From Trachythela sp. YZ-2020 (lineage: Eukaryota > Cnidaria > Anthozoa > Malacalcyonacea > Clavulariidae), in contig JADLSH010000162.1 in the NCBI GenBank assembly GCA_016169945.1, positions 1,674,001 to 1,738,000 on the forward strand: 64,000 nucleotides of DNA, in the 5' to 3' direction. Shown piece after piece: positions 224-64,000 of this stretch. A program made the position numbers and the translations under genes. The notes under the pieces are model-generated. The model was not told the DNA's origin. It did not search any database and saw nothing but the letters and a program-made list of their open reading frames with translations. Each line of letters opens with the position of its first letter. Within the stretch, counting starts at the first letter, position 1.

Positions 224-402
224 GCTTTACAAGAGAAGATCAAATCAGATGAAGTGCCAACCTCGACATTCTCATATGGTGAAGAAATTACAAACGAACC
301 AAACCTGAGTTCTGATCAGAAATCTAAGATCAAGTTACAAATGGCGGAGATGAAGAAAGAGATAGGAAAGCTATCTGACAGGGCTGGAGCTGCGAAGCAC
401 AA
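224..402 (+). CDS. Giant gene exon 1 (second half of a spectrin-like repeat)
   Basis: 179 nt, phase 0 to 2. Acceptor CTCAAG, donor GTGAGT. Begins ALQEKIKSDE and ends LSDRAGAAKH, the helix-B/C half of a repeat. An upstream in-frame Met at 143 lies before the acceptor and is not needed. Confidence 0.82.
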
Positions 403-21400: not shown

Positions 21401-24400
21401 TTATGGGAATCTTCTTAGCGAATGAGAGCGAACCTATTTAGCCCTTGTAATTGTTTGGCATCCGCTATTATGGATGGCAAATTCCACTGCCCAAATTCAA
21501 ACTGATTTAAATGAAATCCAACATGGCTGACATGAATACTTTCCTTAATAACTCCAATTCTATACATGCTAAAACAACAAACTATACACCAAAATATTCC
21601 TCGTTGTTCAAGGATTATAGCGAGATATAGCCTGTTTTATAACTCCCAGTATTTCACAAGATATAAGCGAAAACTGCACTTCAATTAAATCCACGATAAT
21701 GCCACCCAAAATGGCGGATTAATTAGCATGACGTAATATTTTAGCGTGACTGTAAGACCCTAATATAAATGGTCATTACTTTGGTTCTAATTGAAAAGTT
21801 TTAGTATCAAATTGCCAAAATTTGTGGGGACTTATACTACTAGTATTAAATGGACAGTTGCTTCGATACCCAAAGACAATGTTTAAGGAATATAAATATT
21901 GTATACTCTTACTTCAGGTAATTTCCACTGAGATGGATGGAAGTCCAGATAAGATCAATGGTCTCTCACAAAAGGCTGAATATCTCATCAATACATCCTC
22001 CATCTCACCCAAAGATAAAGACAAAGTCTCTCAAGATTTGAACAACTTGAACAATACCTGGAAGAATTATAAAAACGAAGACGAAACGGCCAGAGCGAGG
22101 TAAACAGAACCACCAGGGCTCAAAAGAGCAGCCTGCCAAAAACATGCCTAAAGCAGGCCATATTTTAGAAATGGTATGTTGTGGCTCTTTAGGATCAAAC
22201 TACTGAAAAATTCAACAAGAACTTTGACGTTTCGAAGTTAGTATTCGTCTGGAAGTTAGTATTAAAAGGGCCTTCGCTCGAAACGTTGAAGTTCTTGTTG
22301 ATATTTCAGGTAGTTTGATCCTGAAGACCCGCAGCATATAGACGATACGTACATTGGAACCACGCGTTTAACATATTTGTGAAATGGCTGGCGAAAATAG
22401 TCTTGAAATGCCAAGTCAAAAATAGAATGGCGGGCGAAAGAGTTTTAATATGCTTTATTCCTATTTAAATCCTTCTAGTTTCGACGCTCAACCACGAGAA
22501 GTTGTAACTGAACTTGTTGAAGTCCAGAAAGCAGATGATCTGGTTGTCCAAGGAACATTTGAGGTTTTTAAATTTATTTACATGTTTTAACTTTTTCCAA
22601 AAATATATCCCGTACTTGGCACCTTTGGAAACACGGACGCATGACAATATGTTGAGTTATCGACTTCCATATTATTAGGAGCAGTTGCTGGTCTATTGTA
22701 GAGTGGTAGTGCATCAGACAAATTAGCATATTTAAATCAGGAATTATCAAGGCCGAAGCTTGTGTTATCAGCCAAAGCTGAATGCCGAGGCGGATAACAG
22801 AAACAATCATTCTTATTTAGGATATTGACGATCTGTTCGCACAGGAACCTGAGCAACCGGAGACTGTGGATTACGGAGAGTGGAAGGACCGTGTTGGGGA
22901 ACTGGAACGAATTCTTGATGAAGAAGATGGAAAGTTTGATCCGAAGTCGGATATTGAAAAAGAATATTCAAACTTAGAAAAACTCGCACAAGAAACAAAG
23001 GTAGGAATTGTACACAACTACATCATGATGTAATATATGCTCAGAAATTCTCAAATAGACTAGTTTATTTAAATTTATCATGCTTAAATATTTTTGAAAA
23101 GAGTAAGGGACATTTTTTCAACCATACTCCTTGTTTTAAGGACTCTGGTGTTACTGTGGATGATGTTTGTAAACCAAAGCTAGCCAAGATTTTATCAGAT
23201 GGTAATGCACTTGTGAACAGTAAGCAACTTGATCCAGTTGACGAGGCAGAGATTACTGATAAGATGGTCTCCTTGAAAGACAGAACACAACGTATCGATA
23301 CTGCTGTTATAGTCACTAGAATGAAGTAAGTATGCAAGGATAATCGCATAATTTAAACTAGAGGACACTCAGGGACTTCCGCCAGCAAATTAAGTCCAGT
23401 TTCATGCATAAATTATACATGCATAATTACGCATTTAGTCCGGGAAAGCAAGACGCGTCCTGGTGGAGGTAATTATGGGTGGTTTAAAACGTTAGGGGAA
23501 ATAACTGCAATTTCAAACTTAGCTAGAAATCGCACTGAATTCGCTTGATTAGAATCTCACAAAGTATTTAATTGCGTTTTCTTCAGGGTTCGAGATGCTG
23601 CTCTGGAGTATTTCAATGAAGCTCTCAACGAATGTTCAGTCAATGTTAATAGAATGCATGAAACAGCCAGGTCTTTACGCCCACCTTCAAATGATTTACC
23701 AAGTGTTCGTGTACAGCTAGCTTCTATGAAGGTAACCTGTCTCAAAGATTTGATATATACTGTTATAATCTGGTTGTGGTGGTGGTGGTGGTAATGGTGA
23801 TGATGGTGGTTATAATAATGATCGTGGTTATAATAATAATGATGGTGATGATGATGGTGGTGGTGATGGTGATGGTGGTGATGATGATGGTGGTGATGGT
23901 GATGATGGTGATGGTGATGATGTTGATGTTGATGTTGATGTTGATGATTGATGGTGGTGATGATGGTGGTGATGATGGTGGTGATAATGGTTAATGATGA
24001 TGGTGGTTATAATAATGATCGTGGTTATAATGATGGTGATGGTGATGATGATGTTGGTGATGATGGTGATGTTCGTGATGATGATGATGGTGATGTTCGT
24101 GATGATGATGATGATGATGGGTTGTTATGATGGTGATGGTGATGGTGATGATGATGGTGATGATGGTGATGATGGTGATGGTGGTGATGGTGGTGATGGT
24201 GGTGATGGTGGTGATGGTGGTGATGGTGGTGATGGTGATAGTGATAGTGATGGTGATTGTGATGGTGATTGTGATGGTGATTGTGATGGTAGTGGTGATG
24301 GTGATGATGATGGTAGTGGTAATATAAATCAATTGTAACGAGTAATATGCAAGTGCTCAAAAACGTTCAGTTACACCACTTACGACTGACTTACTTTCTT

Positions 24401-27400
24401 CTTCTAAAGTCCTTAGAGAAACGACTTTCAGTTGATGGTTCTAAAGTTCGAGACACGGAGGAGAAAGTAAACAAGATGGAAGATGCTGGTGTATTACCCC
24501 GGGATGGTTTTGCCGGTACTCTAAATGATAGATGTGATGAAGTGAAGAAAGAACAACAAAATGTCAATGTTGATATTGAAGAAGCCAAACCAAAGTATGT
24601 TTAGAATACTGTATGTTTCCGCCCCTTGAGTCTTCTATACGTTGACAAAGCAGTGTTGGGTACAATTGAGACTGGTCCTGGTTTACACCAAACTAACTCT
24701 ATTTATACTGGATAGCACACTAAACTAACTTTATTTATACTGGATAGCTCTATCAATTCTAAACTGTTCTTCCTAGAGGTCCAGTAAGGATCATCTCTTA
24801 TTGATCCAGTGTTACTACAGGAGGAAACCTAAACTAAACTAACTTTATTTATACTGGATAGCTCTATCAGTTCTAAACTGTTCTCCCTAGAGGTCCAGTA
24901 AGGATCATCCCTTATTTATCCAGTGTTACTACAGGAGGAAACCTAAACGAAACGAACTTTATTTCTACTGGATAACTTCTATCAGTTCTGAACTTTTCTT
25001 CCTCGAGACCCATTAAGGGCCAATTCTGATATAAACTAAGTTATAATTTATATCCAGGTTGCATCGTGCCTTACTCAATCAATTAAATCGAACACAAAAA
25101 GCTGTCAACAAGTGGTTGAAACTTTGCGAGAAGAAGGAGAGAAATATTGACGTCGCCAACGTGAAAGATCTTGATAAAGCACATCAAGAATGCTTGAAAC
25201 TGAAGGTAATTTAGATGAAAAATAGCAAAAGGCTTAGAGTTTTCCAATAAAGCTCTTTATAAAACCTACTTTATATTTTGTAGCAAGCAAAGGCTGAATT
25301 TGACAGAGGTGAACCCCAATATATTACTTTAACTGAAGTGCAGAAAGAAGCTGTGGATGATGGCATCTTGGTTGACAAGAAAGCTGTTGATTTTGACAAA
25401 CAGATGGAGGGACTGGCTGCCAGACATGATGATCTGAAGAAACGCTTGGAAGATAAGGATAGCGAGTAAGGATATTGACCTCCACGATATTGACTTTTCA
25501 CCTGTGTTTGTCTATAAGCATTCGTCTATAATCAAACATTTTAATACGAAGCTAATGGCCACAGGGCAAGGACACATCGATTTAAATTTGCTTAATGCTT
25601 TTTATCTTCATACAGCCAGGCAGATTTGTATCTTTATTCGTTTAACATATTTTGTAGACTTTTAACCTATGTCAGACAATCCACAGAAGATGTGTTGAAT
25701 TCTGCGGATGAGAAACTTGAGGAGCAAAAGACATGGCTAGAACCTGAAGACCCAGCTGATAATTTCACAGATGCAAAAGATCAACAGGATACAATTAAGG
25801 TAAGATTGGATTTGTATCCTGTAATAACACGGATTCAAATAAAGGATGATCCTTACTGGACCTCTAGGAAGAACAGCTTAGAACTGGTAGAACTATCCAG
25901 TATAAATAAAGTTAGTTTAGTTCAGGTTTCCTCCTGTAGTAACACTGGATCAATAAGAGATGAATCTTACTGGACCTCTAGGGAGAACAGTTTAGAACTG
26001 ATAGAGCTATCCAGTATAAATTTAGTTAGTTTAGCTGTCGCACTAACATCTTAAATGCCAGATTTTGCTATAGATAAATAACACTATACTAAAATAATAC
26101 TACACTTTATACATTGAAAGATGTCAACTTTGTATTTTCTATACATATACTAATTTGTTTTAAGGAGCGAGAATCCACTATCAAAGAACGATCAAAAGAT
26201 ATCATTGTTCAACTCGGACCAGTTGAGAAAATCGCCACCGGTGAAATATTACCACTGCCAGAATCAACTGCTCTGCAACGTCGTGTTGCTGATGTGAAAA
26301 CTAAATTTAATGCTGATATTCCTGTTGCCAAAGACAAATCTCAAAAGTAAGTGATCATTGAATTACTAAAATCTATAATATTTTTTGTTGATGTCATAAA
26401 TAACAATCATTTGGGTATTTCAGACTCAAGGAAGGTTATGGCGAACTTCTCAAGAAGGAAATTGAGAAACGTAAAGCATGGCTTGATGATCATGAGGGTC
26501 ATGTCCCCGAAGCAGAAACTGACTTTAAAGATTTCAACGAATTCAAGGTCAAATACGACCAGAACAAGGTATTGTTGCACCTTCTAGCTCTGTTCAGAGA
26601 AATCCTCAAATCTATTATGCTTGATTTTATAAACTAGACTGTAACATTACATGTAGTAGAATTTGTGTTTAGTTATTAGCAAGTGAACTCTACCACCATC
26701 ATTATGCAATCCTGGATCGAATCATATTCGTCCATGGTCGAATCATATTCGTCCATAATAAGCTCTTGCCTTCTACCTTACTATGTTAACTGTACTATAT
26801 ACTTATGTTTTACATTACTTGTGCTTTAAAACAGTTTTTCATTTCGTTTCATCACTCAGGATTTTGTAAAAGAACTTGATGACAACAATATCCAGGTTTT
26901 GATTGAAGAAGCTGACAAAATTGATGGCATTGAACCAGAATTGAAAGAAGAACTCAAAGATTTGGATGAACGTTGGGATAAGATCCACGATGCTACAAAA
27001 GATAAGACTGATTCATATGATGATCTCATGACAAAGTGGGCTACATTCCGCGAACAGCAACTGACCTTGTTGAACTGGATTGATGAGGAGGATGCTGTGG
27101 CCACAGGAGAAAAGGATCAAGTGAATCTTGCTGATGAGGACGAAGTTGCTGAGCATATTAAAAAACTAAAGGTAGATAAATAAGCTATTAAATAACTATA
27201 TTTATAATTGTAATAGATATAAATCCTGAACGCGTGGATTTTATCTTCAATATTCCCTGTGGGAGGAAACCAGAAAACCCAGTGAAAACCCACGACTTGG
27301 GTAGAGTTTTGACTAACTCTATTCACATAAGTGCCAATTAATTGAATTGGCTTTTCAGCAATTTTTAGTCATCGGCTCATCTCATATTTTCAGGATGTGA

Positions 27401-30400
27401 AAGAAGAAGCAGAGGTTCAAGGGGAATCACAAGAAAAGAAATTGAAAGAAGCCAGTGAAGATTTGATCCGCCATCTCGGTGAAGATTCTCCAGCTGCTGT
27501 GGAGATCAATAAACAGATGGAAGAAGTTGATTCCGTGAGACAAGATTTTATCAAAGATATTGGTGTTAGAATTGAGAAGGTAAAAGTTTTAGGTTTTTGT
27601 ACTGGAATGGCACATGGTTCTGGATAGCTCTATCAGTTCTAAACTGTTCTTCCTAGAGGTCTAGTGAGAGCCATCTCTTCTTGATCCAGTGTTTCTACAG
27701 GAGGAAACCTAAACTAAACTAACTTTATTTATACTAAATAGCTCTATCAGTTCTAAACTGTTCTTCCTTGGGGTCCAGTAAGGATCGTCTCTTATTGATC
27801 CAGTGTTACTACAGGAAGAAACCTAAACTAAACTAACTTTATTTATAATGCCTGGATAGCTCTATCAGTTCTAAACGGTTCTTCATAATTTCACCTCAGT
27901 CGCACATGAGAGGAGTGCTTTCAGTCTGACTCTACGAAACACAGATTTTCCCCTGCTAATTTAGTTTCTTCAGGTATTTGGTTTCCACATATAATGGATC
28001 CATATACGAGGTGGTCCTTACTTGAATGAGCTTAGGCAGAACTGATCTGAACTGTACAGTAAAGTACTGTAAAATATACTTCTTTTAGATTGAAAGTAGT
28101 GAAGAGAAAACTAGAGATTTATACAATGACATTGATGATGTAACAACGTGGCTAGATACGACAGAAGGTCTCATTGACACGTATGAAAATCATGAAAAAG
28201 AAGCTGCTGACGGTGATAGTTCACGTGAACATGTCTTGCCTAAGGATGGAGAGGTCGAAGAAGAGATGGTCCATGTTGTGGAAGAAATTTTGGTAAGTTT
28301 AGCTTCATAAAAATTGAGCGATTTATTTTGGGTTGTTAACTGGCATAAATAATGCTGTGCTGCTTGAATTTAATGTTTTCCTCCATCCTATCAAGAGTAA
28401 TGTTGACAATGTTGTTCATACTCGATAGCAGTACTATTATATTGCTAAAGTCTCACAAGTTGTTCGTGACCTGCAGACAAGCTGTAACAATTATGTTATA
28501 AAGTTTGATATCAGGATCTTTTTGCACTGATTGTTGTTCGATATTTGTCTCTTCAAGGCTCACTTCCCTCCAAGAACAGTTCAGACATGGCACAATAGAT
28601 TGACACTCCAATTCCTATAAACATTGTCATCCGAAAACCTGCACTCTACACTCAATTTACACAAAGAGACTGTTGTATAGTTTGCTCTTTTATTTATGTC
28701 AAATTCTTTATATTTTCTTCTTTCAGATAAAACGTAAAGAGATCCCAGAGCGAGAAATACAACTCAACAATGCTGTGTTAGGTGTAGGTCAGTTGGATGA
28801 CCAGCTGCTTGATGAATCAACTGTAGAAAATGCTCAAACTAAAGTAAACGACGTGAAAGATCGCTGGGGCGCTGTAACACAGCGATTGGATGACTTCTGT
28901 AATCGTGATATACCTGTAAGTGGTACTAAGGTGATTTTGTCATTTGATTCCAGGCTAAGTGCATGAAGATTTGACGTGTATCACAGGGTTCGTACAAAAA
29001 TTGAAAGTCCTTGAATTTATAAAGAAGTGCTTTAAAGTCCTTGAATTCTTCTTGCTTTAGTTATTGGATACTGTATTTTCTGAAACTAGTCCCTATGTGA
29101 CACGATTGTACAGTTTAACAGCACTTTTTACCGACTTCTAACACCTTCTTTTCAGTCCTAAATAGTCCTTGAATTTCCTGATACATGGCCTGGAAAGTCC
29201 TTAAAAAGTCCTTGAATATTATTCTTCCTGACCTGTAGGAACCCTGTTGTTGATATGAACACTGTTGTTGATATGAATTCCTACTGATCATTGCTGATAA
29301 CCATTTCTATTAATTGGCATTATTAACATCATTTTTAACATTGATATTAACCATTTCCCAGGAAATTGAAATAGCTGAAATCAAAGCAGAGCATCTTGAA
29401 GAGGAATCTTTAGATGAAACGGATTTGAAATCTGTAGTGACGTTGGATACATGGCGAGAGAAAGTCAGGAAAGTGAACTTGCTGTTGAAATATGTTGAAC
29501 GGTTGGTTAGTGTCAATGCTGATGGAAAAGGGGATTATCCAAGCATAAGAATCTTGGCATCTAACACGAAGGTAAATTTTGCTCTATTCTATTTAAGAAC
29601 TGTCGGTGGCGGATAGTTAAGAATTGATAGAGCTATCCAGTATAAATAAGGTTAGTTTAGTTTAGGTTTCCTCCTGTAGTAACACTGGATCAACAAGAGA
29701 TGATCCTTACTGGACCTCTAGGGAGAACAGTAGAGGTGATAGAGCTATCTAATATATATAAAGTTAGTTTAGTTCGTCTTACTAAGGAACATATGCTTTT
29801 TGGTGGACTATCATGAATTCTTAAAAGTTTAAGCAAGCATAAATACTTCCTTTTTTGTCTCTAGGAAGCGACAAAAACCATCACCTCGTACTGCAAACCA
29901 AGAATAGAAGTCATTACAACATTGGGCGACAATATTATTGACGATGACCCTCACAACATTGACCAAGGAGAAGAAATAACAACTACTGTTGATACGTTGA
30001 ACAAGAGAATTGAACTTTCAGAAAATAGTGCTACCATACTCAAAATGAAGTATGTGAAATTATGTGAATTGTCTTAAAGTTTGTCTAATAGAAAACTATG
30101 CTCGTCCCATTTAGATTCTGTTAACATGACTTCACTGTTAAGTACTATACCACACTTTTATTCATGTTAGCTCATTTTTGCTCATTTTTGCTCATTTTGG
30201 CTCTTTGGCTCCTTCAATATTTCAGTTCCTTTTTGTTTTTTTCTGTTCATTTCTTCAGTTTTTCTCACTTGTCCTGGACTTGATACACTGCCTTTTGAAG
30301 AAAATGCCTGTAATTAATCTATTTTCAATTTCCAATAACTAGAGTCCGTGATTTGGCACTGGATTACTTCAACAATCGTTTCAACAATTGTGAAATTGCT

Positions 30401-33400
30401 CTCGAAACTGAGGAAGAAAATGTCGACAAATTATTGACCACGAAACCTGACCTGGAAACCACACAAGAACAAATGGTGCTTTTGAAGGAAGGACGAAAAG
30501 AGTTTGACAAGAACCAGGAAGATTACGAAAATGTTGTTGGTGAATTAAAGGACAGAAAAATCTCGGAATTTTTGTCGAAAGAAGGATTTCAAGGAACTTT
30601 AGGAGACAAGAGTGATAATATCAAAAAGAGACGGGATGCTGTGGATAAGAAATTGTCAGAATCGCAAACACGGTACTATATTAACTAGTATATTTTCGTT
30701 GGTTTTATACGGTGTATTGTGGTCAGTGTGGGTTAAGTTAACGAATTGGTTTATCAGTAGAACTATTGGTAATGTTTTGTATCTGATTGTTATAAACAAC
30801 CTTTTAATCTTTGTACACCATTCTCTTTAGAATCCATCGTAATCTGATCTCACATTTAACGGAGATGAAGAAAACTGTGGCAAAATGGCTGACATCTTGT
30901 GAGAAGAAAGAAAAATCCATAACTGTTGAACCCACGCCATCACATGACCCAGTTGCTGAATATAAAAAGCTGAAGGTAGGTTATACCTTGTGGTATTGCT
31001 ATAATCTTCTTTTGAAAGTGTTCAGAGACGGAATTTGATTCAGCAAATGAGCAATTCTAGACTGACATTTCACGAAATGAGGCCATGCCATGCCATACCA
31101 TCTTGCAGGCACCATTTCATCTCATATAGTCATATTCCATATTGTGTACTTCGCTTAACTTAATGCTATATAGTGCTTTGCTATACTATATGCATTTGTG
31201 CCATATTAACAGGTTCCAAAACTTGCCATACCACACCATAACACGTCATACACGCGTAAAAATCTCACATCTTGTCAACAAGATGTGTTCGCAACAGACT
31301 TACATCAAGCTTGTCAACAAGTTCGCAACAGACTTGTTAACAAGTTGTCGAATTGCTGGACGATAACAGGTTGTTGGAAAAACTTGTAACAAGTCTGTTG
31401 AGTCAACAACCTTGTGGCAAGTTGTCATCAAGCCGTTGACAACTTGCGAACAAGCTGGGAACAAGCAGTGCGAACACATCCTGATAACAAGTTGTTGAAA
31501 CAGCATTGTTAAAACTTCTGCGGTTTCACGTGTGTATACTTAGTAACTCCAAAAACTCGGCTTAGACCATTACCCAAATTTCCATATTTTTGGATCATTT
31601 GACAACAGCTCGTAGGTACTACCCTAGGATAAATCCATAGTTATAATTTGTTTTGTTTTAAGGCTTTGCGTGAAGAAATGGACGAAGGTGAACCAAAATA
31701 CGATGCCACTGTGCAGTTGAACAAACAGTTGACGACTGATAATGTGCTTGAAGGGAGGAAAGCCTCAAACTCTGAGAAAGACCTTCAATCTTTCGCAGCT
31801 AGGTTTGCAGCATTAGGGAAACGATACCATGATAAAAATGGTACCTTCTATATAATTCTCCTCAACCTAGCTCAAACAACAATGGATGAAGTTAAGGATG
31901 ATATCGCAGAGACGGAGCAAAAAGTTGAGCAAACAAATTTGGCTGAGAGGTTCCCTCAAGTCAAGCAAGATTTCCAGAACGCAAAGGTATTTTAATGATG
32001 TATTAGAATATATGTTAGTTTGAAAAGCAGCAAGTTTGGTGGCCTGTTTTTAAGTCTTCTATTAAATTAATTGCTTACTACCGTTACTAATGTATTAGCC
32101 AAAAGTGTGAGCTAATCTTGATAGCTGTATCAGTTCTGAACTGTTCTCCCTAGAGGTTCAGAAAGAGCCATCCCTTATTGATCCAGTGTTACTACAGGAG
32201 GAAACCTAAACTAAACTAACTTTATTTATACTGGATAGCTCTATCAGTTCTAAACTGTTCTTCCTAGAGGTCCAGTAAGTGTCATCTCTTATTGATCCAG
32301 TGTTACTACAGGAGGAAACCTAAACTAAACTAACTTTATTTATACTGGATAGCTCTATTAATTATAACTTAACTAGCAGTGTAGCAAGGGCCATTCCTTA
32401 TTGATCCAACGTTGCCACAGTAGAAACTCATATTATCGACAAGAAACCTGCAGTGGGGTATTTGATATTAGGGTTAAAGAAATTGGGTGCTGCTTGTAAA
32501 AATTCTTGTTTTATCGTAAGTGGTACTCTTGGCTGTTTATGAAGCACAGATAAATTTATTAAACGTATTTTATGTTTTTCATAGAATGTCAGAGATGAAG
32601 TGGACGAAGTTTGTGAGAAATCAAAGGACACTCTGAAAGATGTTCATGCAATCGTAGCACTGGATGTCTTCAATGATGATGACAAAAAGAACGTGGATGA
32701 TCGAAGAAATGAATTGAAAGATAAGAACTCTCAACTATCTGAAAAATCAGATGATAAGTTTGACAAGTAAGTGAAAAATCATGGTTTTAGATTCAGTACA
32801 CTTTTTGCAAAATTACTACCATTTGCAATCAAGCGTGAAATGGGACGAACTACTGTATCTAAAACATTTTAAGTTTCATTTGTTAACGTTATTAAGTAAT
32901 TTACTTTAAACATTCGCATTCTGCTATGGAAAACTACAATGTTTTGACGCACTTACCAACACCTCCACAATTTCCATATTTACATTAAAAGAGCACCTTT
33001 GCCCTCTCTTAAACTTCTTCGATAAACAGTCATTGAAATTCTAATATATATCGCACAAACAACGTTTAGTTGTAAAAAAATAGAGTAATTAAAAGCCAAT
33101 TATCTATTTTCCTCCATTTGCACTAAATTTAGTTTTGCGAAACAGTATAACGGAATCATTGAGAATGAAGTGAAGAATCGTAAGATGTGGTTGGATTCAA
33201 ATGAATCATGGATGGCCATCACAGATAATGATGTTGACGATCTCCCTGGCTTTGCCAAGAAACTTGACGAACAAAAGGTTTGTGTCTTTTATACAGGGTG
33301 TAGAAGAAATCTGGGAGTCCAGGATTTTTTAAATGTAAATTTCGAAAATAATTATAGAGTAAAACGTTTATATTTACATTCACTTTAAAGCTAAGTCGTT

Positions 33401-36400
33401 CTGCTTTCCAACGGTGGGTTACTTCTTAAATTTTAATGATTGGTTTGCGAATAATAGTGGGTAGGTAGGTAGGTAAAACTTTATTTCAACACGTTAGCCA
33501 CTTCAACTGAATTGTTGATTCCAAGTGGGACGTGATTTAAAACTACAAATATTTACAAATGAATAAGAAAAGTACACACAAACTATATACAAAATCAATT
33601 ATATTACTTATAAGTATATTTATTAATTATTGGCATTGGCGTTAGAGATGTTGTTATTAAATATGAACAAATATTCGCTATTTCTAGCTTGTTCAGACGA
33701 TGAATTCCATATTTTTGGTCCTAACACACGTTTTTAAAGATATTTAGTTTTCGGACGCGGAAGGAAGAGAGTAGTATTTTGTGTAGTTGTAATTGGAGAA
33801 TAAAAAAATTGAGATGCAATAATAACGCGATATTTAAAATGAAATAACGTAGTATAACATTGCATAAAGGACAAGCTTGAAAATAAGGCTGGACTTTACA
33901 TTCGTTTAGTTAAAACCAGAGTAACAAGCGTGTTTCTCTTTTTCCAGATATTTCAAGAGGAGCTTGAACACCGAAAAATGGAGGGTCTAATTGATGAAGC
34001 AAAAGACAATGAAGAACTTTCTCCTGACACCAGATTCATGATCTATGATCTCGATGACAAGTGGAACACGATGGACAACTGGTCTGAAGAAAGATTGGAT
34101 AAACTAAATAAGGTCAACGTCGATTGGAAACATCTTCGTGAGCAAGAAAAGGAACTATTGGACAATATTGATGACAATGATGCAAGGTTGAAGTTAGTTT
34201 CTACTCCTGTTGATTTGTCTGACAAAGAAGAAACAGAAAATCAACGAAATGAACTCAAGGTTTGATCATATTTATGCTAGATATTTATTTGCTAGTCAAA
34301 TGAATATGAGATTGAACCTATTAAGCCGTAATATGCCCTTAGCTATTTTACTCTAACGCCAGACCAATGCTAGTTATTTCAACTCCTGAATTAAAATTTT
34401 ACAATTAAAATATGTCGAACGAGAAGGAAATGAACGAAAACAAGGAACGGAGGTTCGCTCTAAAACTCGACTTTCTGAAAGCTAAAAAATACTCGCCTAT
34501 CGGCTCGTATTTTTTTACGCTTTCAGAAAGACTCGCAACATCCCGCGTGTTAGGATCACGCAATCCTGCACGGAAAACCATTCGTTAATCCTTTGTTATA
34601 AGTTCTAAACTGTTCTCCCTAGAAGACCAGCAAGGGTCATCTCGTGTCAATCAGCTCTGGCAAAACGATAATAATCTTTCTTGTGTTTATATAGGATCTC
34701 CAATCAGATGCACAAGAACTTGGCTTAAACGTTGTAAAAATACAGAAATCTTCAAATGATTTGATCAAACTCGTCGGTCCTGACAGTTCAGCTGGTAAAC
34801 GTATGGAGGAAGAGTTTAATGATGTCAGCACTTGTCATGGTAAATTGTGCGCTGACTCCTTAACAAGACTGAAGAAGGTATGAAGTTTATCTGAAATTAA
34901 AATCATGATAGTCAATGGTGTTTTCATCGTATTGTGACCATTGATCTATGATTGTGACATTATTGATGCATTTATGTCATTCCATACATCATATCTCAAT
35001 ATTTTAATAAGTAGAGGGCACTCAGACTACATACTTCCGCCAGCAAATCAAGTCCAGTTTCATGCATAAATTATACATGCATAATTACGCATTTAGTTCT
35101 GTTCAGCTCGGGAAAGAAAGACAAACTTTTGTACATTTTCCATCCAATTTTCATCCAATTTGAACCAAAATTTAATCGATTTCTCCTTGACCTATGACCA
35201 TTAGCTCAACAAATTTTCGTATTAAAATGTTTGATAGTTTTTGAGTTATCGTGTTCACAGTCAAACGCACGCACAATTGGTGTTCATTGTTGTGGTGTCC
35301 CAGCCATTGATTGTTAGTAATTATTGTGTATGTTTAGCTGTTTGTGTGAGTCATTTGTATCACTGTTTTTATGTCTATTTTTGGCGAAGATAAGTAAATA
35401 AATCAATAATTCTTGCAATTGTCTCGCACAGCTCGACGCATCAGAAAGAAAAACAAAGGCTCTCTATGACCACATGGATGATATCAACGTGACAATGGGT
35501 GAAAGTGAGAATATCTTGAAATCTTTGAACGATGAAATGAAACAGACAGAAGAGAAGAAAGATACGACGAAAGACGGTGAGATAAATGAAAATGATGAAG
35601 AGCAACAGCGTGAAGAAATAGAGGACAGAAAAGACAAACCATCTTCTGATTTGAATAAGTTTGTGGATCAAATTTCGGTAAGAGTTTTTCAATCAACTTT
35701 GTCAATTTACGTAGCCGTAGGCAAACGAAGAATCGCTGTTGCAGAAACGCTATTTCCTAGCCATGCTTCTCTAAGGCAAACCAGGCAATTGACATTGTTT
35801 CCACAACAGAACTCTTACTTGGAAAACAAAATATGTTTTGGAATTTCTTAGGAAGCATTCCTTTCCTGGAATAAAAAATGCTTCTGCAACAATTTTTCTT
35901 AATTTGCACACGGTTTAAGTGAGAATAATGCATATCCTTTCATGTAGGGCAACCAAATTGAAATATCAGCCTTGTTCAGCTATTTGTTTTGACCAGGGCT
36001 TCTGATTAATTTCACTGGCATGTTACACTATTGGCCGTGACCTTGAACAGAGCATTTTCAGAATTACTGGAGCATACCATTATACATGCATAGCCTCGAC
36101 TACATTCTTTTGAAAACAGACTGGAAGATATAGGAGTGAAAGGTGAAGAAGAAACGCCATTTTTTTTGTTTAGCTTCGTCTGGGTGAGCGCCCCGAGGAA
36201 AAAGCGCGTGTCCAACGTGCCAAGGAACTGGAGGCGAGTCTTGAGGAAGATCTCGGCGATGAAGCAAGGAATGTTCTTCAAAAACAAGTGGAAGATTTTG
36301 ACAATCGCTGGGAAGATCTCAATAAGAAAATGGACCAAGCTGTCAAAGATAGTGAAACTGTAAGTACTTTAGGGGTCGTTGTACCTAAATTTAGTTTAGT

Positions 36401-40573: not shown

Positions 40574-40604
<31 letters not shown>

Positions 40605-49600: not shown

Positions 49601-52600
49601 TATCATTGACAATTCAACGAAGATTTAAAGGACAAAGGTAACCAAGCATTTAAATTATAAGTGCGTGAATTGAATGGCCTGCAAGGGGCAGAAACGGGCG
49701 TTAACCAACTTGGCCCATTAAGTCTATACTGTAGGGCTTAAGATAAAAGAAGCTTAACTTTAAAACACGCTTTATTTCCAAACATAGATCCATGTAAATG
49801 TAATTGTATTTTGTTATAGTTTGTATATAACTGTGGTAAAGTCGATAAGTCTTCCATTGGAGTCAATAGAACTGGCAGTGACTGAGGGAGAAAGTTGGGT
49901 TGAAGCTGAGGAGCTTTCCGATGAATATGATCAAGCCAAAGAACAGTTGAATAAAATGAAGGTCAGTATGATTTAATTGGCGTCACCAAAAGTTGACTCA
50001 AAGACTTTTAAAGAAAAATGTGTAAAGTAAGTTTACACCTGTCACTTTGATCAAAGAAAGTTCGATAGCGTAAACCAGACTTAAGTCTTTGAAAGAGGTT
50101 TACACTGTCACACACTTTGATCAAAGAAAATTCGATAGTGTAAGCCAGACTTAAGTCTTTCAAAGAGATTTACACTGTCACACACTTTGATTAAAGGAAC
50201 TTCGATAGTGTAAACCAGCCTTACATGTAAGTCTTTGAAAGAGGTTTACACTGTCATACACTTTGATCAAAGAAACTTCGAAATTATAATCCTGGTCACA
50301 GAAACGAAAGAGTCATTTCATCTTTTTCTTTAGTTGTCAGTATTTGTTATCGAAACACTCCATACGCGATCAGCTAAAGTCTTGAAAGAAACTGAAGCAC
50401 TTGTCTCCGAACATGAATATTTGACTCCAGAGAATAAACAGGTTATCATAGAACGCGTTCATGGCTTGTCTCCGAGAACTGACGGCCTACCTGCCGCTGC
50501 TGTGAACAAATACAAGAGGTGATGACAATTTAGCTATTATTTTTTACCGCGTTTATGGACTTTGTATATTCATTTGATTATATCTTTGTTGCAGAATGAA
50601 GCGTGAGTTTTTAGTTCTGATTGAAAGCGAGGTTGAATGCCGAGATGCTTGGATTACAAAGAATGAGGGCAAGATGTCCTTACCTCCAGCTGGGGATGTT
50701 CAGGACCTTGAGGGATTTGAACAGCTCAAAGACGCACATGATGTAAGTTATAATTCGCGATTTAACAGAGGATAGGATGAAATATAGCCTGCGTGCAGGC
50801 GCCATTCTGGGGTGAGAATGGGCAGGGTCTGTGTGTGTCCATGGCAATTATTTTCTTAAAAATTGCCATTGATATTCTATATAACGGGTACCTGAACTAA
50901 CTTTATTTATACTGGATAGCTCTATCAGTTCTAAACTGTTCTCCCTAGAGGCCCAGTAATAATCCTCTCTTATTGATCTAGTGTTACTACAGGAGGAAAC
51001 CTAAACTAACTTTATTTATACTGGATAGTTCTATCAGTTCTAAACTGTTCTCCCTAGAGGTCCAGTAAGATCATCTCTTATTGATCCAGTATTACTATAA
51101 GAGGAAACACCTGCGGTGTTTGGTTGGGTCGAACTTAAAGCACTTTTCCCACATGTGACTGAAGTGAAATTATAATCAGACAACTCCATCACTGCAAAGA
51201 TTGAACCCCTGTCAGAGAGATGGAAAACACATGCATTAACCACTCTTTCGACAACACCTCGAAAAGAAGAAAGAGGTTCTTATGCTGATCTACACTTGTA
51301 AAATGCTCATTAGTGTTTTGCCATATCTTTAGGATTTTCTAGGAGAACTAAAGCGCAACGAAATGTCTGAATTTGTCAAAGACTCGGAGGGTAGGAATGA
51401 TCTTAAAAAGCGAACTATCGTCAAAATTCGTGAACTGCAAACCCGTTGGTCAACTTTGCTTGCCTGGGCAACTAAAAGAACAGTGTATTTGAACACAGTG
51501 ATCGCGAACTGGCAAGAGTTCAGACAACATGAAGTGACAGCTACTGAACTCATTGATGGAAAAGAGAATGATCTGCAAGGGATTAATGAAGAAATGAAAA
51601 CTGGAAGTGGTGAGGTTGCTCAAGAAAAAGTTCAGCAACTTGAGGTAAGAATTGACAAAGTTTTATAAGTTGATGATGAATCGTAGTTACCCTTGTTTTA
51701 TTCTATGTTTTCGTAAAATTAAACAATAGTATAAATCAGGCATGTGAATTATCTATAAATGCTTAGTACCTTCGTTCTAATCTTTCGTAAACTAGAACAA
51801 TAGCAACTAGACTAGGCATTTGAGTTATCCAAAATAGTGAAGACAATGTTCGCAAACTAAACTTGAATTACTACCGTATTCGCAACGTCAAATAGCTCAC
51901 ATGCTAAGTTACTCGCATATTCCGTTCCGATGATAGTCTGTTGTTCTAAACCCTTTTTGTAAAAGATAAGCAAATGGGTAGTACAGATTTCATCCACATC
52001 GATCATAATAATATGCACAGTCTATATACAGTATTAAGATTGATTTTTCTTGGTATTAAATCATTTACTTGGAACTCATTTCCATATTTTTAAACAAGAA
52101 ATTCTTGTTTACATAATGCAACCAATTGCAAGCCAGTATTAATATAAGGTGATGACCACCCATCGCGGCACATTAAATATTCTATCTTGTGTAACAATAC
52201 CAGTCTGCGAATGCAGACACACAAAACACGATGTTTGTTTGTTGTTTTAAACAAGTAATTTTGTTAAAGATTTAAAGCAAAATGTAATACAGACTTTAAC
52301 CACATCAATCATAATAATATGCTCCGTCTATAAACATTATTAAGATTGATTTTTCTTGGTATAAAATATCATTTTCTGGGAACTAATTTCCATATTTTTA
52401 TTTAAGAAATTCTTGTTTTCATAATATGACCAATTGCAAGCCAGTATTAATATGAGGTGATGACCTTTGGTCACAAGACATTAGATATTCTATTTCATGC
52501 CAGCAAATTCCTGTCTTGAAAAGACGCTCAAACACTTTATGCGGAAGTGATATTTGTCTGCTGTTCTAAACAGATTATTTTGTTAAAGGTTTAAAGCAAA

Positions 52601-55600
52601 TACTAACACAGACTTTCTCCAAGAACGAACACTGTATCTATATTCAGTCTATATAGCGAGGTTTATACTACAGAGCGACTGACATCAACACAGAACTTGC
52701 TTTATTATTACGAAACAAGAATGGCGTGAAATATGGCGTCATATATACAAGGTTACGATGAGGAAAGGTTCGAGACCACAGTCAATCGAAACTTCCTTTG
52801 TTTGATTTGCTTTAATGTTTTAAAAGACCCGGTCCTGTGTCTGAGAAATCAGCACTGTTTTTGTCGAGCTTGTATTACGAAACACCTTGAGAATTCCAAA
52901 AGATGTCCTACGTGTGCGGACGAAATGACAGTAGAGGCTTTGGCCGAACCCAATAGAATGGTAAAAGATTATTTAAATGAATTAAACATTCGTTGCGTTT
53001 ACATCGACAGAGGTTGTCAAGAAGTTGTACAATTGCAACATCTTGACCGCCATGAGGATACGTGTGGATATACACCAGCCGTTTGTACAATCCAAGGCTG
53101 TGGTGTAACTGTAAACAAGCGTGATCTTACTCACCATGAAAGCGAACTTTGTCAATTTCGAAAGTTGAAGTGCCACTCGTGCGGAGAAATGACAAAAACT
53201 TTGGAAGATATGGATCTTAGAATCGCGAATGTGGAGAAGAATATGGTGACAAATATAACATTCGAAACAGCGAATATGGCAAAAATGGAGAATATGGTCG
53301 CCATGGAAACCCACATGAAGAGGGTACAGACGAATGTAGTAAATATGGAGGCGCGAATGGCGAATATGGAGAGAAATTTGGCAGGGATGAAAACAGATGT
53401 GGAAGGAAAACACGAAGCAGTAGATCATGAAGTCAAAGGATTGAAAGCAGCTTTGATTGAAGGTTTTGATCAAATGAAGGAAGTTCTTGTTAAGATGGAG
53501 GACACGATAGAAGAAAACACAAGAAAAGTGAGAAATACAGCAAGTGGTGATAAAGAAAATATAATTGTTGCTGGAGGTTATGAAACTGACTCTGTAGAGA
53601 TGTTTAACTGGCGTCAAAGAACATGGTCGCCATTACAATCCATGCCAAAGAAGCGTTATGAACCGACTTCTTTTGTTTATATCAATCACATGACTATAGC
53701 TGGGGGCTATGTCGATGATATGATTAGAATGAATATTGACCCAAACCCTGATCTCTCAACACACTGGAGTGACTGTCCTGTTAAACTACCTGCTAAGTTG
53801 GCACGCCACAGCAGTGTGCTGTATAACGATCAGTTGATAGTTACTGGTGGTTATGATGGAAATGCAGTATCTGACTGTATTCATGAAGTCCAGCTTGTTC
53901 CTCCCTATACTGTGAAGACCTTATCAAGAATGCCAGAACCAAGACAAGATCACAGCACGGAAATATTTGATGATAATTTGTTGATCGTTGGTGGAAGGAC
54001 AACTGACAACTGCAAAGACAGCCTCAGCAGTGTCGTACTGTACGATATAAAGAAGAATGAGCTGAAACAGTTGTCACCACTGCCGTATGAAGTGAGTGTC
54101 ATGGCAACTGTGAAATGGGGAGACAACATCGTTGTTATAGGTGGCGCTGACAAACATGGCAACAGATTAGATACAGTTATCATGTACAATGTCAAGACAG
54201 AACAAAGTTGCATGCTACCACCAATGAAATGTAAGAGGTTTGGATGTACTGCAGTTGTTATTGGAAACAACATTGTAGTACTGGGAGGGTTGAGTTGGCA
54301 AGGATTTCTGAAGTCAGTTGAAGCTTTTAACTTTGAAAGGTACACTTGGGAAGAACTTCCAGAAATGTCTCGAGCAAGATTCTGGAACACTGCTGTTGTT
54401 GTGTGAACAATGCAGGAATGTTCAACTCATTTCTTATAATCATAATCATATCATGAACAATTTAGAGCAGATTATTAACAACTAAGTAATTTTTAGATTA
54501 TTTGTGGATTTTAAAATAGCTGTTGATCCGTAGCAGAATATATGTTTCTGTAAACACGGAGACTGCAAGATCATCAACTTTGACGCAAGTAATTTCAAGA
54601 AAAATGGTGTTTTTGGAGCGGTCTGCAGTGTCGCACATTTTGTTCAAACAAACTTTGATAGTGTAAACCAGCCATAAGTGAATGTAATGACACTTCTTGT
54701 AAATATAATAATTGTTTAATTTTGTGTTAATATGGTGTTGTACTGGGGCGAAAATATATAAATTTTGAGTAAATTGCTTAGAAACGTTACGTCGCCGATT
54801 CTTTTCGCGTTTTGTTCATGAATTTCCACATGCAAAATTGGTAACGTTGCCTGCCAATCTATAACTTTAGATAACTCGCATGCCTTGTTACTATTGTTCA
54901 CGTTTACGAAAACATAGGATAGAAGAACAAAGGTAACTAAAGGCCCGTTTACACTACCCGTACCATTTTTATCCGTGCTGAGACTACCTAAATAGGTAGT
55001 CTCAGCACGGGTAAAAGTGGCACGGGTAACATTTTTATCCGTGCCGTGCCAAATATTGAGCGTAATGTAAACGGGCCTTAAGTATTAGAAATATCTACAT
55101 GGTGAATAAGTTGTTAACATAATCTTAGTTGTCTTTGTTCGACTTTATCCTTCCTTTTAAATGAAGTTATCCCTTTCGTAAACATTTGACTGGAACAAGT
55201 TTTTTCTCCAAGAAGCAATAATGTTTGGCAAAACAAATCAGAAACATTTTCTTTTACACAATGCTATTATTGTTTTGCAAACCTGTATTCCTTATTGAAT
55301 TTCAGTGATTTACTCATAAGTGACTTTTGAAGCTAGCTTTCTAGTTTCCCCAGCTTTAGGAAGCATGGCAAAGAAGCAATGTTTCTGCGATAAGTAATAT
55401 ATCATACACGAGAAGGAGTTTATTATAGTGATTTGAAACACCGAAAAGTGTGTTGAAAAACAAGGCGCTAGCCGAGTTTTTTAACATACTTTGAGGTGTT
55501 TTTAAATCACTATAATAAACGACTTCGAGTGTATGATATAGCTTCCCAAACAAACCAGTATTTAAAGAGAAATTCAACGCGAAAGTTGAGTTAATTTATG

Positions 55601-58600
55601 GGTGTTTATTACCGTGGTATCAAGACAACGATACGGTGGTGATTTCCTTTGTGTTTTGCTCATGAATTATTAATGAGTTTGAGAATGTTTCTTAGTTTGC
55701 GCCAGTGGCGTTTTGATAAACCATGGGATTTTTTCTGTAGAACATGCAAGGGGAAACGCGTGAAAATTCGTTAGAGATTTGGAAACTGCAACGACAGTCT
55801 AGCGTACTTATGAAAAGCATTGGCGAGGATGCTCCAGCAAGCAAGAACATTGAACAGCAAACAAACGATCTTATTCAACGCAATGATAAGTTATCACAAG
55901 ACATTTCAGTTGGAATCAATGGGGTATGTAATGGTTTAAAATTTTATATACAGACCTTTTGAGTAAATTGGATTTTTGTGATAGAGCTCGATTTTCAATA
56001 TGGAAAAATATAGCGTTCACTAATTTTATCATATCTGTACTGGTAAAACAAACATCATAATTATATGAAAAGTTATTTGACGATACTAAAATACATACAG
56101 TTTTGCACAGTTTTTATTCAAAAATTTTTGAGTCAGAACTAATGTTCAGATCACAGGATATTTTTCCATTGTTAAGGCTGGTTTAAATTCTCAAAGTGTC
56201 TTTTATCAAAGTGTGTGATAAAAGTGTTTAGACCAGTATTTCCATGAAGAAGAGATTGCTGCTCTCTTCACTAAAACAGAGTTTATAGAGCTTCTATAAA
56301 ACGGAGTTTGGCAAATACAACAGCAACGCAAGTGGTCGGCTTTTGCCACGTTGGGTGGCAAATTCCACTGGGCAAATTCAAACTAATTAAAATGAAATTC
56401 AACATGGCTGACATTAATACGTACGCCAACTTTCCTTAATAACTCGAGTTCTAGACATGCTAAAACAACAAACTATACACCAAAATACTCCTCGTTGTTC
56501 AAGGATTCTAGCGAGATATAGCTTGTTTTATAACTCTCAGTATTTCGCAAGATATAAGCGAAAACTGCACTTCGATGAAATCCACGATAATGTCACCCCA
56601 AATAGCGGGATATTTAGCATGACGTAATATCATTGCGTGACTGAACGACCTTATCTTTCAGCTTGAGGCTAACCAGCACAAAGCAAAGAAGCTGCAAGAA
56701 CATCTGGATTCTGTCAACAACTGGACAAACAGTACAACAGTATTTCTTGATGAGTTCAATGACGTTGCAGTACAGCTTGCACCAAGCGATATTCCTGCTC
56801 AAAAGGACGGAGAAACCGAAGCAACAACAGATGAACCCGATGGAACGGATGATAAAGAAGAAAATGTCGATGAAGATGATGTTGTGAAAGTAGACGAAGG
56901 ACGGGTAGAGAAAATAGGAACAGCAAATGAAATCATCCACAAAATTGCTGTAAGTTTCATCAGAATTGCATCTATCAGTATGTCTGATGTCTGGAAATTG
57001 GAATGTTTCAACATACCTTGAGCCTAGTTTACACTAGGCGATTATTCTCTTCCTGACGCATGCGAATGAGTGGACTCACGGACAAAAGTATGTGACCATT
57101 ATAGGATCAGTTTTGCAAAGGTACACGTTGATATGTCATTCGCTTGATCACATCGATCAGGAAGAGAAAAATCGCCGGGAACCAGGCTTGAACTTATAAT
57201 GCGCAAGATTATTTCTGATGAATAAACGAGTGTTAGACAGGGTGACATAATCTGGCGTTTGACAACGTAGTAGGCAGGTAGCATGATTAATCCAGTAATC
57301 CTTAATGTGGAAAAGTCTCAGGCAGCTTAGTGTTAGACGGATTGAAATTACAAGAGGCTGCTTCATTGGTCAATACTATATTTCCGTATATCTTTAGATT
57401 CGTCGTGTTGATATCGGGGAATATCAGGCTACAGTTGATCGTATCAATGAACTTCATGCAGAACTCCCGAGCGAGATAGATCAGACGTCTGAGCTGGATG
57501 TACAAGTTGAACAGTTAAACACAAATTGGAAGAACTTCAATACAGCTGTTGATAAGGTTGCTTGGATGAAAATACCGGTGAGTTATGTATAGTTTGGAGG
57601 TTAGGTTTAGACTAGAGCTATCCAATATAAATATAGTTAGTTTAGTTTAGGTTTCCTCGTGTAGTAACACTGGATCAATAAGAGATGATCCTTACTGGAC
57701 CTCTAGGAAGAACAGTTTAGAACTGATATAGCTATCCAGTATAAATAAAGTTAGTTTATTTTATGTTTCCTCCTGTAGTAACACTGGATCAATAAGGGAT
57801 TCTATTAATGGACCTCTTGGAAGAACAGTTTAGAACTGGGTCTCAAGTTTATATATGTCAAAATCTTTAGGGTGTTGACTCACTGCAAGCCGTCACATAC
57901 ATTCTTCATGATATGAAAATAAACAAAGCAGAAGACAGCATTGTTGGAGTGGAAACATTTGATCAATGGAAAGAGAAAGTTTCACAGTTGGAAAATTCTG
58001 TGGGTGAAGTGGAAACAAAGTTCAAACCAGAGAAAAATATCGACAAGGATTATGGGGCGATTCAGGCTGTCTTTAGTAATATCCAGGTGAGAGAATAACT
58101 TTTGATGTTTTAAGAGGAATCAATTCTATGTCGCATTTTTTGCGATAAAAAACGTTCAAAACCTAAAATATTTTTGGCGTTAAAAAAAATTAGTGTTATT
58201 GATGTTGATTATGATTGGTTATTATTAACGATAATGATTATGATTGGTTAATCAATTGTGATTATGATAATGATTATGATTGGTTATCATTAGTGATAAT
58301 GATTATGATTGGTTATCATTAGTGATTATAATGATTATGATTGGTTATCATTAGTGATTATAATGATTATGATTGGTTATCATTAGTGTTTATGATAATG
58401 ATTATGATTGGTTATTATTAGTGATTATGATAATAATGATGATTGGTTATTATTAGTGATTATGATAATAATGGTGATTGGTTATCATTAGTGATTATGA
58501 TAATAATGATTATTGGTTATCATTAGTGATTATGATAATGATGATTGGTTGTCAATGGTGATTGTGATGATTATGATTGGTTTATCATTACCGATAATGA

Positions 58601-61600
58601 TAATGCTCAAACTTAAAATCCGATCAATTTATCATTTTCCGTGTTTTACTTCAGGAATGTCAAGAAGAGATTGATAATATAATCTTACCCAAACTAGAAG
58701 TGATTCGCGTTGCTGGTGTAAAGCTTTGTACTCCTTCAGAGGAGTCAGAGGAAGGCGCTGAACCTGTCCGGGAAGAAATAAAAACGGACGTTTCTACGAC
58801 AGTGCTTTCACTCCATGAGAAAATTGAGAGTTTGCAGACTATAATACAACTTCAGAGACTCAGGTAAGCCTGTTTAGTCATTTTAGAGATTGCGGTTGTT
58901 GACCATTAACAAAAAAACCCATCGGGTTTGAAACCATTCAAATGGCTGCAAAATTTTGATTGAAACATACCGTTTCGGAATACGTGGCTTTGGCTATGGT
59001 ATATGAACTGTCACGAAGACCGTGGTTAATATTTCTTTTTTGAATACAATTATATGTTGACAAAGGTTAATTGAACACGTTCTTGAAGCTCTTTCGTCGA
59101 GTGTAAGACTTGAATTTTTTGTTATTTTTTTCTTCTTAGGCTTGAAGATGTCATCTATGAATATTTCCATGAACGTGTGCGATTCGATCAACGTAATCTT
59201 GCTCAAGAACAGACGGAGTACAAGCGGTTGTTTCCGTTGGGCGAAGATGTCGATAAAATCATCGTGCACTTGGGAATTATTAAGGTTCGTGCGTTTTGAT
59301 GTACGTTATTGAATATAACACAATCATTTGGTTTGGTTGTCGTTCGTTTGTTGGTCGTTGGTCGTTGATTGTTGGTTGTTGGTCGTTGATTGTTGGTGCC
59401 CTGCTGTCCTTGCTCTTGTATCTGCTGTGGTCCTTGCTTCTGGATATCGTATTGTATGCTCTATTGTGCTTTCTAGGAAAGCGAGGAAACGTTCTATACT
59501 AACCACAACAAGTTCAAAGAATCGCAAGAGCAGTTCAATGAATTGAACGAGAAGAAGCTTATTAATGATCAAGATCTTGTGACCTTCGTGACTGGGAAAA
59601 ACAAAAATCTTGGAATACAACGGAACACATTGGGGGATCTATTTAAAGACATCGAACAGAAGTAAGTATTTTAAGGGTGGCAGAGAAAATGAAACTATAC
59701 AGTATATACGAGTTCGGAGTTTCTACTGCGCATCCAAATGACGCGTTCTGCGACGGGCCACAATTGCAGTTGAATCATAACATGTATAGCTGAGACTGGA
59801 AGAATTAAAACATGCATATCAAAGCCAATTCAACTGTCCCATCTGTGAGATTGAACACCGGTGTGATTTGAATATCCCACTGTTCTCCATGCCATCCATC
59901 CAGTCATGATCCAGTGATCACAATGTTCCATTGTATTTTCATTGTTTTGAAAATCTCACTGTTCTCCATGCCATCCAGTCACGATTCAGTGATCAGAATG
60001 TTCCATTGTCTTTTCATTGTTTTGAAAATCTCACTGTTGTCCATGCCATTCAGTCATGATCCAGTGATCAGAATGTTCCATTGTCTTTTCATTGTTTTGA
60101 AAATCTCACTGTTCTCCATGCCATCCAGTCATGATCCAGTGATCACAATGTTTCATTGTCCAGTCATGATCCAATGATCGCAATGTTCCATTGTCCTTTC
60201 ATTGTTTTGGAAACTCCACTGTTGTACAATCCGGAAATGCCCCCCAGTCGCTCATTGTTTTGACATACTTTAGTATTTATGCAAAGCGATGTATTTGATT
60301 TGTTTTCAGACTTCGTCGTAATCTCATCAGCAAGTTCAACAGCAGCAAGACAAAATTCAACAAATGGTTGAAGAATATGGAGAAGAAAGAAAAAACTGTG
60401 GATGCAAATGTTGATGGAGTTGAGAAGTCGTTTACTGAGTGCACAAAGTTGGAGGTAAGAAGCGATGCAATTGCCCAGGCATGAATTTTTGTACTAACCT
60501 TTCTTTACACAGCCTTGATCTTTTATTCATCCTGTTGGCTGTTGCTTGCACAGTTGTTGGTTCATGTGTATTTCAAACAGGTGTCTGATTCCTGTAATGG
60601 TGTCTGATTATAATTTATCTTCACTCACGATCTTCCTTACTGGATCTTTAGGGAGAACAGTTTAGAACTGATAGAGCTATCCAGTATAAATAAAGTTAGT
60701 TTAGTTTAGGTTTCCTCCTGTAGTAACACTGGATCAATAAGAGATTATCCTTACTGGACTTCTAGCGAGAACAGTTTAGAACTGATAGAGCTATCCAGTA
60801 TAAATAAAGTTAGTTTAGTTTAGGTTTCCTCCTGTAGTAACACTGGATCAATAAGGGATGACTCTTACTGGACCTCTAGAGAGAACAGTTTAGAACTGAT
60901 AGAGCTATCCAGTATAAATAAAGTTAGTTTAGTTTAGGTTTCCTCCTGTAGTAACACTGGAGCAATAAGATGATCCTTACTGGACCTCTAGGGAGAACAG
61001 TTTAGAACTGATAAAGCTATCCAGTATAAATAAAGTTAGTTTAGTTTAGGTTTCCTCCTGTAGTAACACTGGAGCAATAAGAGATGATCCTTACTGGACC
61101 TCTAGGAAGAACAGTTTAGAACTGATAGAGCTATCCAGTATAAATTAGATCAGCGAGTTTGCATTAAATTGATCAAATTTAATGAAAGTAATAAAAAAAA
61201 TTCGTTTAGAGTATCTCCGAGGCTCTGCCAGCCGGTGAAGAAATGAAGAAACGTGTTGATAAACTGCTGATACAAATTAATATTGAACTAATCTGGAGCG
61301 AGGCTGATCGAGAGGCTTCAACCGCTGAAGTGAATTCACTGAGAGATAGACATTCCTTGCTGAAAAAGAGCATTGAAGACAAACGAAACACGTAAGAAAA
61401 CTGTCTGTTGTTATACTGAAAGCGAACGCGTGTTTATGCCCGTTGCCACCCAATTCACATTTTAAGAAAGCTTGTTGCCACTGATCTGATAATGTAAGCA
61501 TGAGTAGAACAAAGGAAACCAAGCAATTAAATGTGAATATGAATTAGGTGAAAACGAGCATGCATAAACCTGTATTAGCTTATTAGATCAGAAGCCAGTT

Positions 61601-64000: not shown

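Follow-up and report, generated by a model that had tools for sequence, protein, structure and literature searches.

The window analysed here, a stretch of 64,000 nucleotides from Trachythela sp. YZ-2020 (bases 1674001-1738000, forward strand, of contig JADLSH010000162.1, labelled C188), is crossed by the predicted gene of a giant protein, whose C-terminal 60% is made of six tandem units of seven spectrin repeats. We consider the giant to be, quite probably, a copy of the N-terminal half of dystrophin with a six-unit rod lengthened by block duplication, acting as a tether from actin to a membrane. Positions refer to the window, with negative numbers upstream of it.

Gene model and extent

Exons were predicted by a Viterbi method, for which the codons and splice sites of the window itself served as training data, with no use of homology or RNA, and the contig stretch analysed for the giant gene was 1590001-1848000. 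The exons of zone I, the first part of the rod, were taken from a run with a lower exon penalty and the remaining exons mainly from another run; the penalty was set by hand, and one CH exon was added to the chain by hand. The ends of four exons (k1, j5, l5 and m5, letters giving the cassette position and numbers the unit) were reset to splice sites matching the expected lengths, and therefore the lengths of these four exons are no independent evidence.

The final chain comprised 137 exons, whose 24,330 coding bases encode 8,109 residues. There were no phase breaks and no stops in it, GT-AG borders and phase being largely forced by the exon-finding method. Reading the last exon through to the stop codon added 17 residues, for a total of 8,126 with the first exon missing (this first coding exon was sought and was not found). 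As modelled, the gene extends from -17420 to about 76416, and the exon count gives a rod of about 64 spectrin-like repeats. Eighty-nine exons start inside the window, 30 of them before 22479. A sequence-only reading made earlier had arrived at the same number of exons, and the five exons that it had named as type a (at 26860, 33948, 43246, 51333 and 63728) were found by our independent model at the same starts.

Two RING-kelch stretches put into the chain by the predictor (14429-16068 and 52892-54091) were removed because they are near-copies within introns and the frame continues without them. A predicted in-frame exon at -11326..-11180 was also removed. Onward splicing of the terminal d exon at 76363 was abandoned; the related protein of Dendronephthya gigantea, described below, has an unspliced end. 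The introns of the giant hold two open frames on the same strand, 14429-16068 and 52720-54230, that are zf-TRAF-kelch-like and presumably carry a RING domain; their DNA is 88-96% alike in the pieces reported. Many introns also contain a satellite with a 114-bp unit, seemingly in both orientations (e.g., 12178-13275, 41843-43130, 45073-46400 and 60570-61209), and one has a run of a TTCAG unit at 17490-17628.

The seven-repeat unit and the other arrays of the rod

The natural unit runs from exon e to exon d and is present in six copies, the last of which lies at the stop codon. We chose this frame because the array opens with an e exon and closes with a d exon, in which the stop codon lies. In a reading of the helices the e-d borders are repeat borders, whereas a frame from a to m cuts through repeats 5 and 6. 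The sequence-only reading had described a super-repeat of seven spectrin repeats encoded by a 13-exon cassette a-m; the super-repeat and the 13 positions stand, and the frame has to be shifted to e-d. It had also assigned seven repeats to each block, which is true of five units; unit 4 has six, with repeat 2 missing. The features of the rod are as follows.

224..22563, + strand: zone II, which by exon count has some 15 spectrin-like repeats; the start of the first one lies before the window
22821..28930, + strand: unit 1 (exons e-d), 800 aa, seven repeats; D. gigantea residues 2972-3769, 80%
25658..25799, + strand: exon k of unit 1, start reset; exons k and l form repeat 4, the predicted counterpart of dystrophin repeat 1
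26860..27171, + strand: exon a of unit 1, helices B and C of repeat 5 and helix A of repeat 6
29362..36359, + strand: unit 2, 816 aa; D. gigantea residues 3770-4582, 78.5%
36679..46549, + strand: unit 3, 839 aa; D. gigantea residues 4583-5420, 78%
44747..45073, + strand: exon c of unit 3, which holds a variable acidic insert within repeat 7
46970..57577, + strand: unit 4, 755 aa, without exons g and h (repeat 2); D. gigantea 73.5%
57871..64000 in the window, the whole unit reaching 66112, + strand: unit 5, 873 aa
66619 to about 76416, beyond the window, + strand: unit 6 with the terminal exon, from the exon model

Unit 2 has no introns g/h and j/k, the fused exons being 30343-30672 and 31663-31986. 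The gap of unit 4 (profile positions 115-224) is identical in D. gigantea.

The units are 22-25% identical to unit 1, and 65 of the 773 alignment columns are common to at least five of the six. The Pfam Spectrin family (PF00435), a check proposed along with the super-repeat, matched five of the six units at E<=1, and units 1, 3 and 6 exceeded its cut-off of 29.9 bits with 57.0, 67.0 and 64.2 bits, respectively. For the repeat encoded by the single fused exon g+h of unit 2, single-sequence structure prediction gave three helices with a mean pLDDT of 80. The matches of this model in a Foldseek search were helical proteins of no specific kind; none reached E<=0.001, and there was no spectrin repeat among the 50 listed.

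We observed that exons match by position and not by neighbourhood. The best match of an exon was to the same cassette position in 74 of 76 cases (0 of 5000 permutations), and in both exon trees the total of label changes by position was minimal. The exons thus group in the trees as the sequence-only reading had predicted, with the qualification that a few positions are not single clades.

The two zones that precede the units have arrays of their own. Zone I, after the CH exons and upstream of the window, has eight modules, with 182-nt exons up to 97% identical. Its modules pair with each other (o3 with o5, 99/96; o2 with o4, 91/90) and D. gigantea has six of them compared to eight here; therefore, this array has probably changed recently. 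From 5448 on, two repeat types alternate in zone II according to similarity matrices, which makes roughly five copies of a two-repeat super-repeat plus one extra repeat.

The link to dystrophin

When a profile of the unit was compared with PDB chains, human dystrophin was matched with an E value of 9e-43, the best stretch being unit 357-813 with dystrophin 343-819. Four PDB sequences were found at E<=0.001, all of them dystrophin or utrophin, and the next one was alpha-spectrin with an E value of 0.013. The rods covered by our comparison were those of dystrophin, utrophin, spectrins and spectraplakins.

A second gene lies upstream on the same strand, with about 12 kb between its final modelled exon and the point where the modelled giant begins. 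This gene encodes a long rod and EF-hand domains (EF-hand_2 and EF-hand_3 in Pfam) in addition to its CH exons, and we take it as the dystrophin of this animal. The unit profile matched its first 450 rod residues (18-454) with 114.9 bits. The introns of this neighbouring dystrophin fall at 396, 456, 505, 553, 609 and 670 of the unit profile and those of the unit at 396, 456, 505, 609, 670 and 760, so that, within the aligned stretch, position and phase are shared at five of the six unit introns. The dystrophin intron at 553, inside the stretch of exon a, is missing from all six units. The unit intron c/d (760) found no match, the corresponding border of the neighbouring dystrophin lying in a gap of the profile alignment; in three realignments its counterpart was 6, 30 and 30 columns off and the b/c border coincided every time.

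Profiles of the single repeats (SR1 to SR7) were compared as well. For each of SR5 and SR6 the corresponding dystrophin repeat was the top match; for SR4 it came second, behind a zone II repeat. The top matches of SR1 and SR3 were in zone II, SR2 matched spectrin loci weakly (10.5 bits), and SR7 matched no dystrophin repeat. As a control, the longest open reading frames at eight spectrin loci in this genome, of which several belong to one gene, gave no match to the whole unit at E<=10. With filters off, single-repeat profiles did match some of these frames, with at most 20.0 bits (SR5, which had 28.5 bits with dystrophin). Summed over whole proteins, four spectraplakins scored higher (206-243 bits) than the neighbouring dystrophin (157 bits); in the best single stretch they scored lower, with 68 compared to 115 bits. 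On this sequence evidence, repeats 4-6 of the unit are homologous to dystrophin repeats 1-3. The alignment also suggests that the acidic insert of exon c corresponds to dystrophin hinge 2, which we do not claim.

The CH exons upstream of the window encode a tandem CH domain (Pfam CH, PF00307, in two stretches, E 2.6e-38). Its PDB scores were nearly equal for dystrophin (157 bits), utrophin (154), beta-spectrin (153) and plectin (146), and the tandem CH domain is therefore not specific to dystrophin. Within the genome, the CH pieces scored 54.7 bits with a CH gene on C246, 53.5 and 44.7 bits with a spectraplakin-like gene on C81, and 32.7 and 32.0 bits with the neighbouring dystrophin, below both of these genes. 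The CH intron pattern is largely common to the giant and a beta-spectrin-like gene on C30. These CH results, like the whole-protein sums for spectraplakins, speak against an origin from dystrophin.

The giant shares with dystrophin and utrophin (DMD, UTRN) the tandem CH domain and, in unit repeats 4-6, a stretch colinear with R1-R3 with five shared introns. It differs in its tail, in about 64 repeats by exon count compared to 24 (the number given for human dystrophin in the part of PMC10293626 consulted), and in the WW-EF-ZZ region. WW, EF and ZZ domains were absent from the scanned pieces of the giant (the CH portion, the initial modules of zone I, some of zone II and all six units), and for the D. 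gigantea protein the listed domains are PF00307 and PF00435, with no WW-EF-ZZ. Since this dystroglycan-binding region is absent, we regard the giant as a paralogue of dystrophin and not as dystrophin itself. The EF-hand and GAS2 domains that follow the rod in spectraplakins are likewise absent from the D. gigantea domain list.

Separately, the model of the neighbouring dystrophin contains a PLAT/LH2 domain between rod exons (-53155 to -52579, E 2.5e-23). We know of no other dystrophin with such a domain.

Relatives, tail and competing explanations

With the unit alignment alone as a query, no protein was found within 0.55-1.75 times the unit length. A dystrophin control search of the same database had 173 matches, the one with the highest identity among the 120 listed being from the octocoral Xenia (72% over 41% of the query). 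As this control showed that animal proteins were present, a longer query of 4,822 residues was adopted, scored over zone II and units 1-2, with 1344 candidates scored. Six proteins were found at E<=0.001: one of D. gigantea, one of Nematostella and four spectraplakins. Other anthozoan relatives may have been missed because candidates were limited to 0.55-1.75 times the query length.

The D. gigantea protein, "nuclear anchorage protein 1-like isoform X2" (P0121, 7,885 aa), is 78% identical over the scored part and aligns with the giant over 7,825 residues at 79%. It is a predicted record and an orthologue, with the same domain order, six units and tail, differing by two zone I modules fewer (6 compared to 8). 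The six units pair one to one and in the same order at 74-83%, compared to 22-27% for other unit pairs, and the length of each unit differs by 1-4 residues. The lengths of zones I, II and III are 1,100, 1,845 and 4,903 residues in the giant and 835, 1,848 and 4,897 in D. gigantea.

The Nematostella protein, "dystrophin isoform X2" (P0122, 5,568 aa, E 4e-40), has only CH and Spectrin domains in Pfam. One near-full match to the unit, 4795-5470 (348 bits) with 5480-5543 (29 bits), adjoins its C-terminus, and there are 16 further partial matches of 28 bits or less each. The best places of SR1 to SR7 are in this C-terminal unit and in order, SR4 fitting 809-909 equally well. For the last 344 residues of the protein, dystrophin was the sole PDB match at E<=0.01 (E 9e-36). 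The blocks that the sequence-only reading proposed to look for in related genomes are therefore there, as the same six units in D. gigantea and as one full unit in Nematostella. At residues ~1325-2374 the Nematostella protein has six weak matches to unit repeat 1 in steps of ~165-210 residues; another part of its rod thus seems to contain a separate array.

In a tree of units, each unit joined its D. gigantea counterpart at 100/100, the six stems formed a star, and the Nematostella unit was on a long branch. Mean identity was 0.230 between units and 0.203 between units and the Nematostella unit, an order reversed in 1 of 300 column bootstraps. Of the 65 columns mentioned above, Nematostella has the same residue in 33. 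Because identity among the units is slightly higher, duplication of the unit in the octocoral line, after the split of octocorals and hexacorals, is weakly favoured and not proven; the anemone may instead have lost units.

The 17-residue tail after the last repeat, CWFVRFMRRKMFRASIN, is identical in the giant and D. gigantea. It is recognisable in the end of the Nematostella protein, CCMVRILRNKLGICH, where cysteine, hydrophobic and basic residues recur. The helical moment of the tail, taken as a bare value, is 0.42-0.44. We infer a putative membrane anchor here, which would act by inserting into the membrane and maybe also through S-acylation; the tail might instead be a calmodulin site.

Dystrophin descent would explain these data in the following way. 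An ancestral anthozoan paralogue would have ended in one seven-repeat module and the tail, and in the octocoral line the module would have been tandemly duplicated to six copies. Unit 4 would have lost one repeat after the duplication, and the copy number of the N-terminal array would still be changing. In the protein, which is likely an actin-membrane tether, the CH pair would bind F-actin at one end and the cysteine-containing basic, hydrophobic tail would hold the opposite end to a membrane. Given a rise of ~5 nm per spectrin repeat, the rod between them could be an extended spacer of roughly 0.3 µm for ~64 repeats. A larger claim, which we find rather doubtful, is that anthozoans have, besides dystrophin, another and so far undescribed giant derived from it, in which the dystroglycan end was lost and a lipid-binding tail was acquired, with a six-fold, nebulin-like super-repeat in octocorals that fixes the distance from actin to membrane at about 0.3 µm. 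If the tail does bind a membrane, actin would be linked to membrane along a path in which dystroglycan has no part.

The name of the D. gigantea protein raises another identity for the giant, a nuclear tether of the nesprin (ANC-1/Syne) type. ANC-1 of C. elegans likewise has CH domains in tandem, a giant helical rod and similar size (8,545 aa in the portion of PMC4091705 consulted), and its six tandem repeats of ~903 residues (PMC8139857, PMC4091705, as excerpted) are the closest precedent for a spectrin-repeat giant of this kind, for which the sequence-only reading had named none. The ANC-1 repeats are, however, nearly identical in nucleotides, and the consulted part of PMC8139857 reports no spectrin repeats identified in them by sequence; the units here are far more diverged, as given above. 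ANC-1 also has a KASH domain. When the genome was searched for KASH, no match at E<=1 lay on the contig of the giant, a crude scan of the locus for KASH-like tails gave nothing convincing, and the tail has just 17 residues. Together with a rod that matches dystrophin R1-R3 and shares introns with it (nesprin rods being outside the comparison), this makes a nesprin very unlikely. KASH matches at E<=1 did occur elsewhere, on C34 (23.3 bits) and C130 (19.6 bits), as candidates for nesprin or other KASH proteins. An artefact of assembly or gene prediction, which exons predicted without RNA and introns crowded with satellites might bring to mind, is next to inconceivable: the independent D. gigantea record agrees at 79% over the 7,825 residues aligned, and it has the same terminal exon and the same loss of a repeat in unit 4. 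The gene models of the D. gigantea genome authors used RNA-seq, according to the consulted part of PMC6447388.

As to what the super-repeat is for, it could be a functional ruler of ~35 nm per unit in register with actin or tropomyosin, a figure that depends on the assumed rise of 5 nm. The stable lengths of the units and of zone III between the two species would fit a ruler, as would the contrast with zone I, which differs by a pair of modules. Nebulin offers a parallel with seven modules per higher-order repeat, measuring 38.5 nm in the part of PMC7109182 consulted; its fold is different, however, and the giant includes one unit of six repeats. That unit, short in both species, breaks the register, and the other periods of zones I and II, the one full unit in Nematostella and the loose per-unit motifs further make a ruler decidedly improbable. 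A super-repeat without a function of its own, a by-product of unequal exchange in a rod whose length is tolerated or useful, is a real possibility, though we would not call it probable. It would account for three arrays of differing period and age in one gene, for the low identity of the units and for the seeming expansion of another part of the Nematostella rod. On the other hand, the identity of positions has stayed strong despite long divergence, the 65 columns are conserved in at least five of the six units, and unit lengths are stable between the two species. Descent from the N-terminal half of dystrophin with block duplication is the reading that we prefer.

Nested duplication in spectrin rods was reportedly described by Thomas et al. 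in 1997. That rods grow by duplication of spectrin repeats within a gene is known, according to the consulted part of PMC9145010, and the giant illustrates this with arrays of differing period and age within one gene. A single ancestral module may persist in Nematostella, an animal open to manipulation. The giant looks like an invertebrate paralogue of dystrophin, related to one protein of an octocoral and one of a sea anemone; this goes against a 2023 review (PMC10293626), which in the part consulted has invertebrate genomes without one. Among the titles and abstract openings searched, with most subscription papers outside, the gene was not described. Within that literature, the origin from dystrophin, the existence of a paralogue in invertebrates, a defined seven-repeat unit whose intron phases are specific to position, and the tail appear to be new.

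Two further genes were observed on the contig. Exons between the dystrophin and the giant (-26668 to -25355) presumably belong to a MIX23/CCDC58-like gene. About 2.5 kb downstream of the giant, from 78911 on, there is a histidine-phosphatase gene (Pfam His_Phos_2, E 1.7e-16), which we take to be MINPP1-like.
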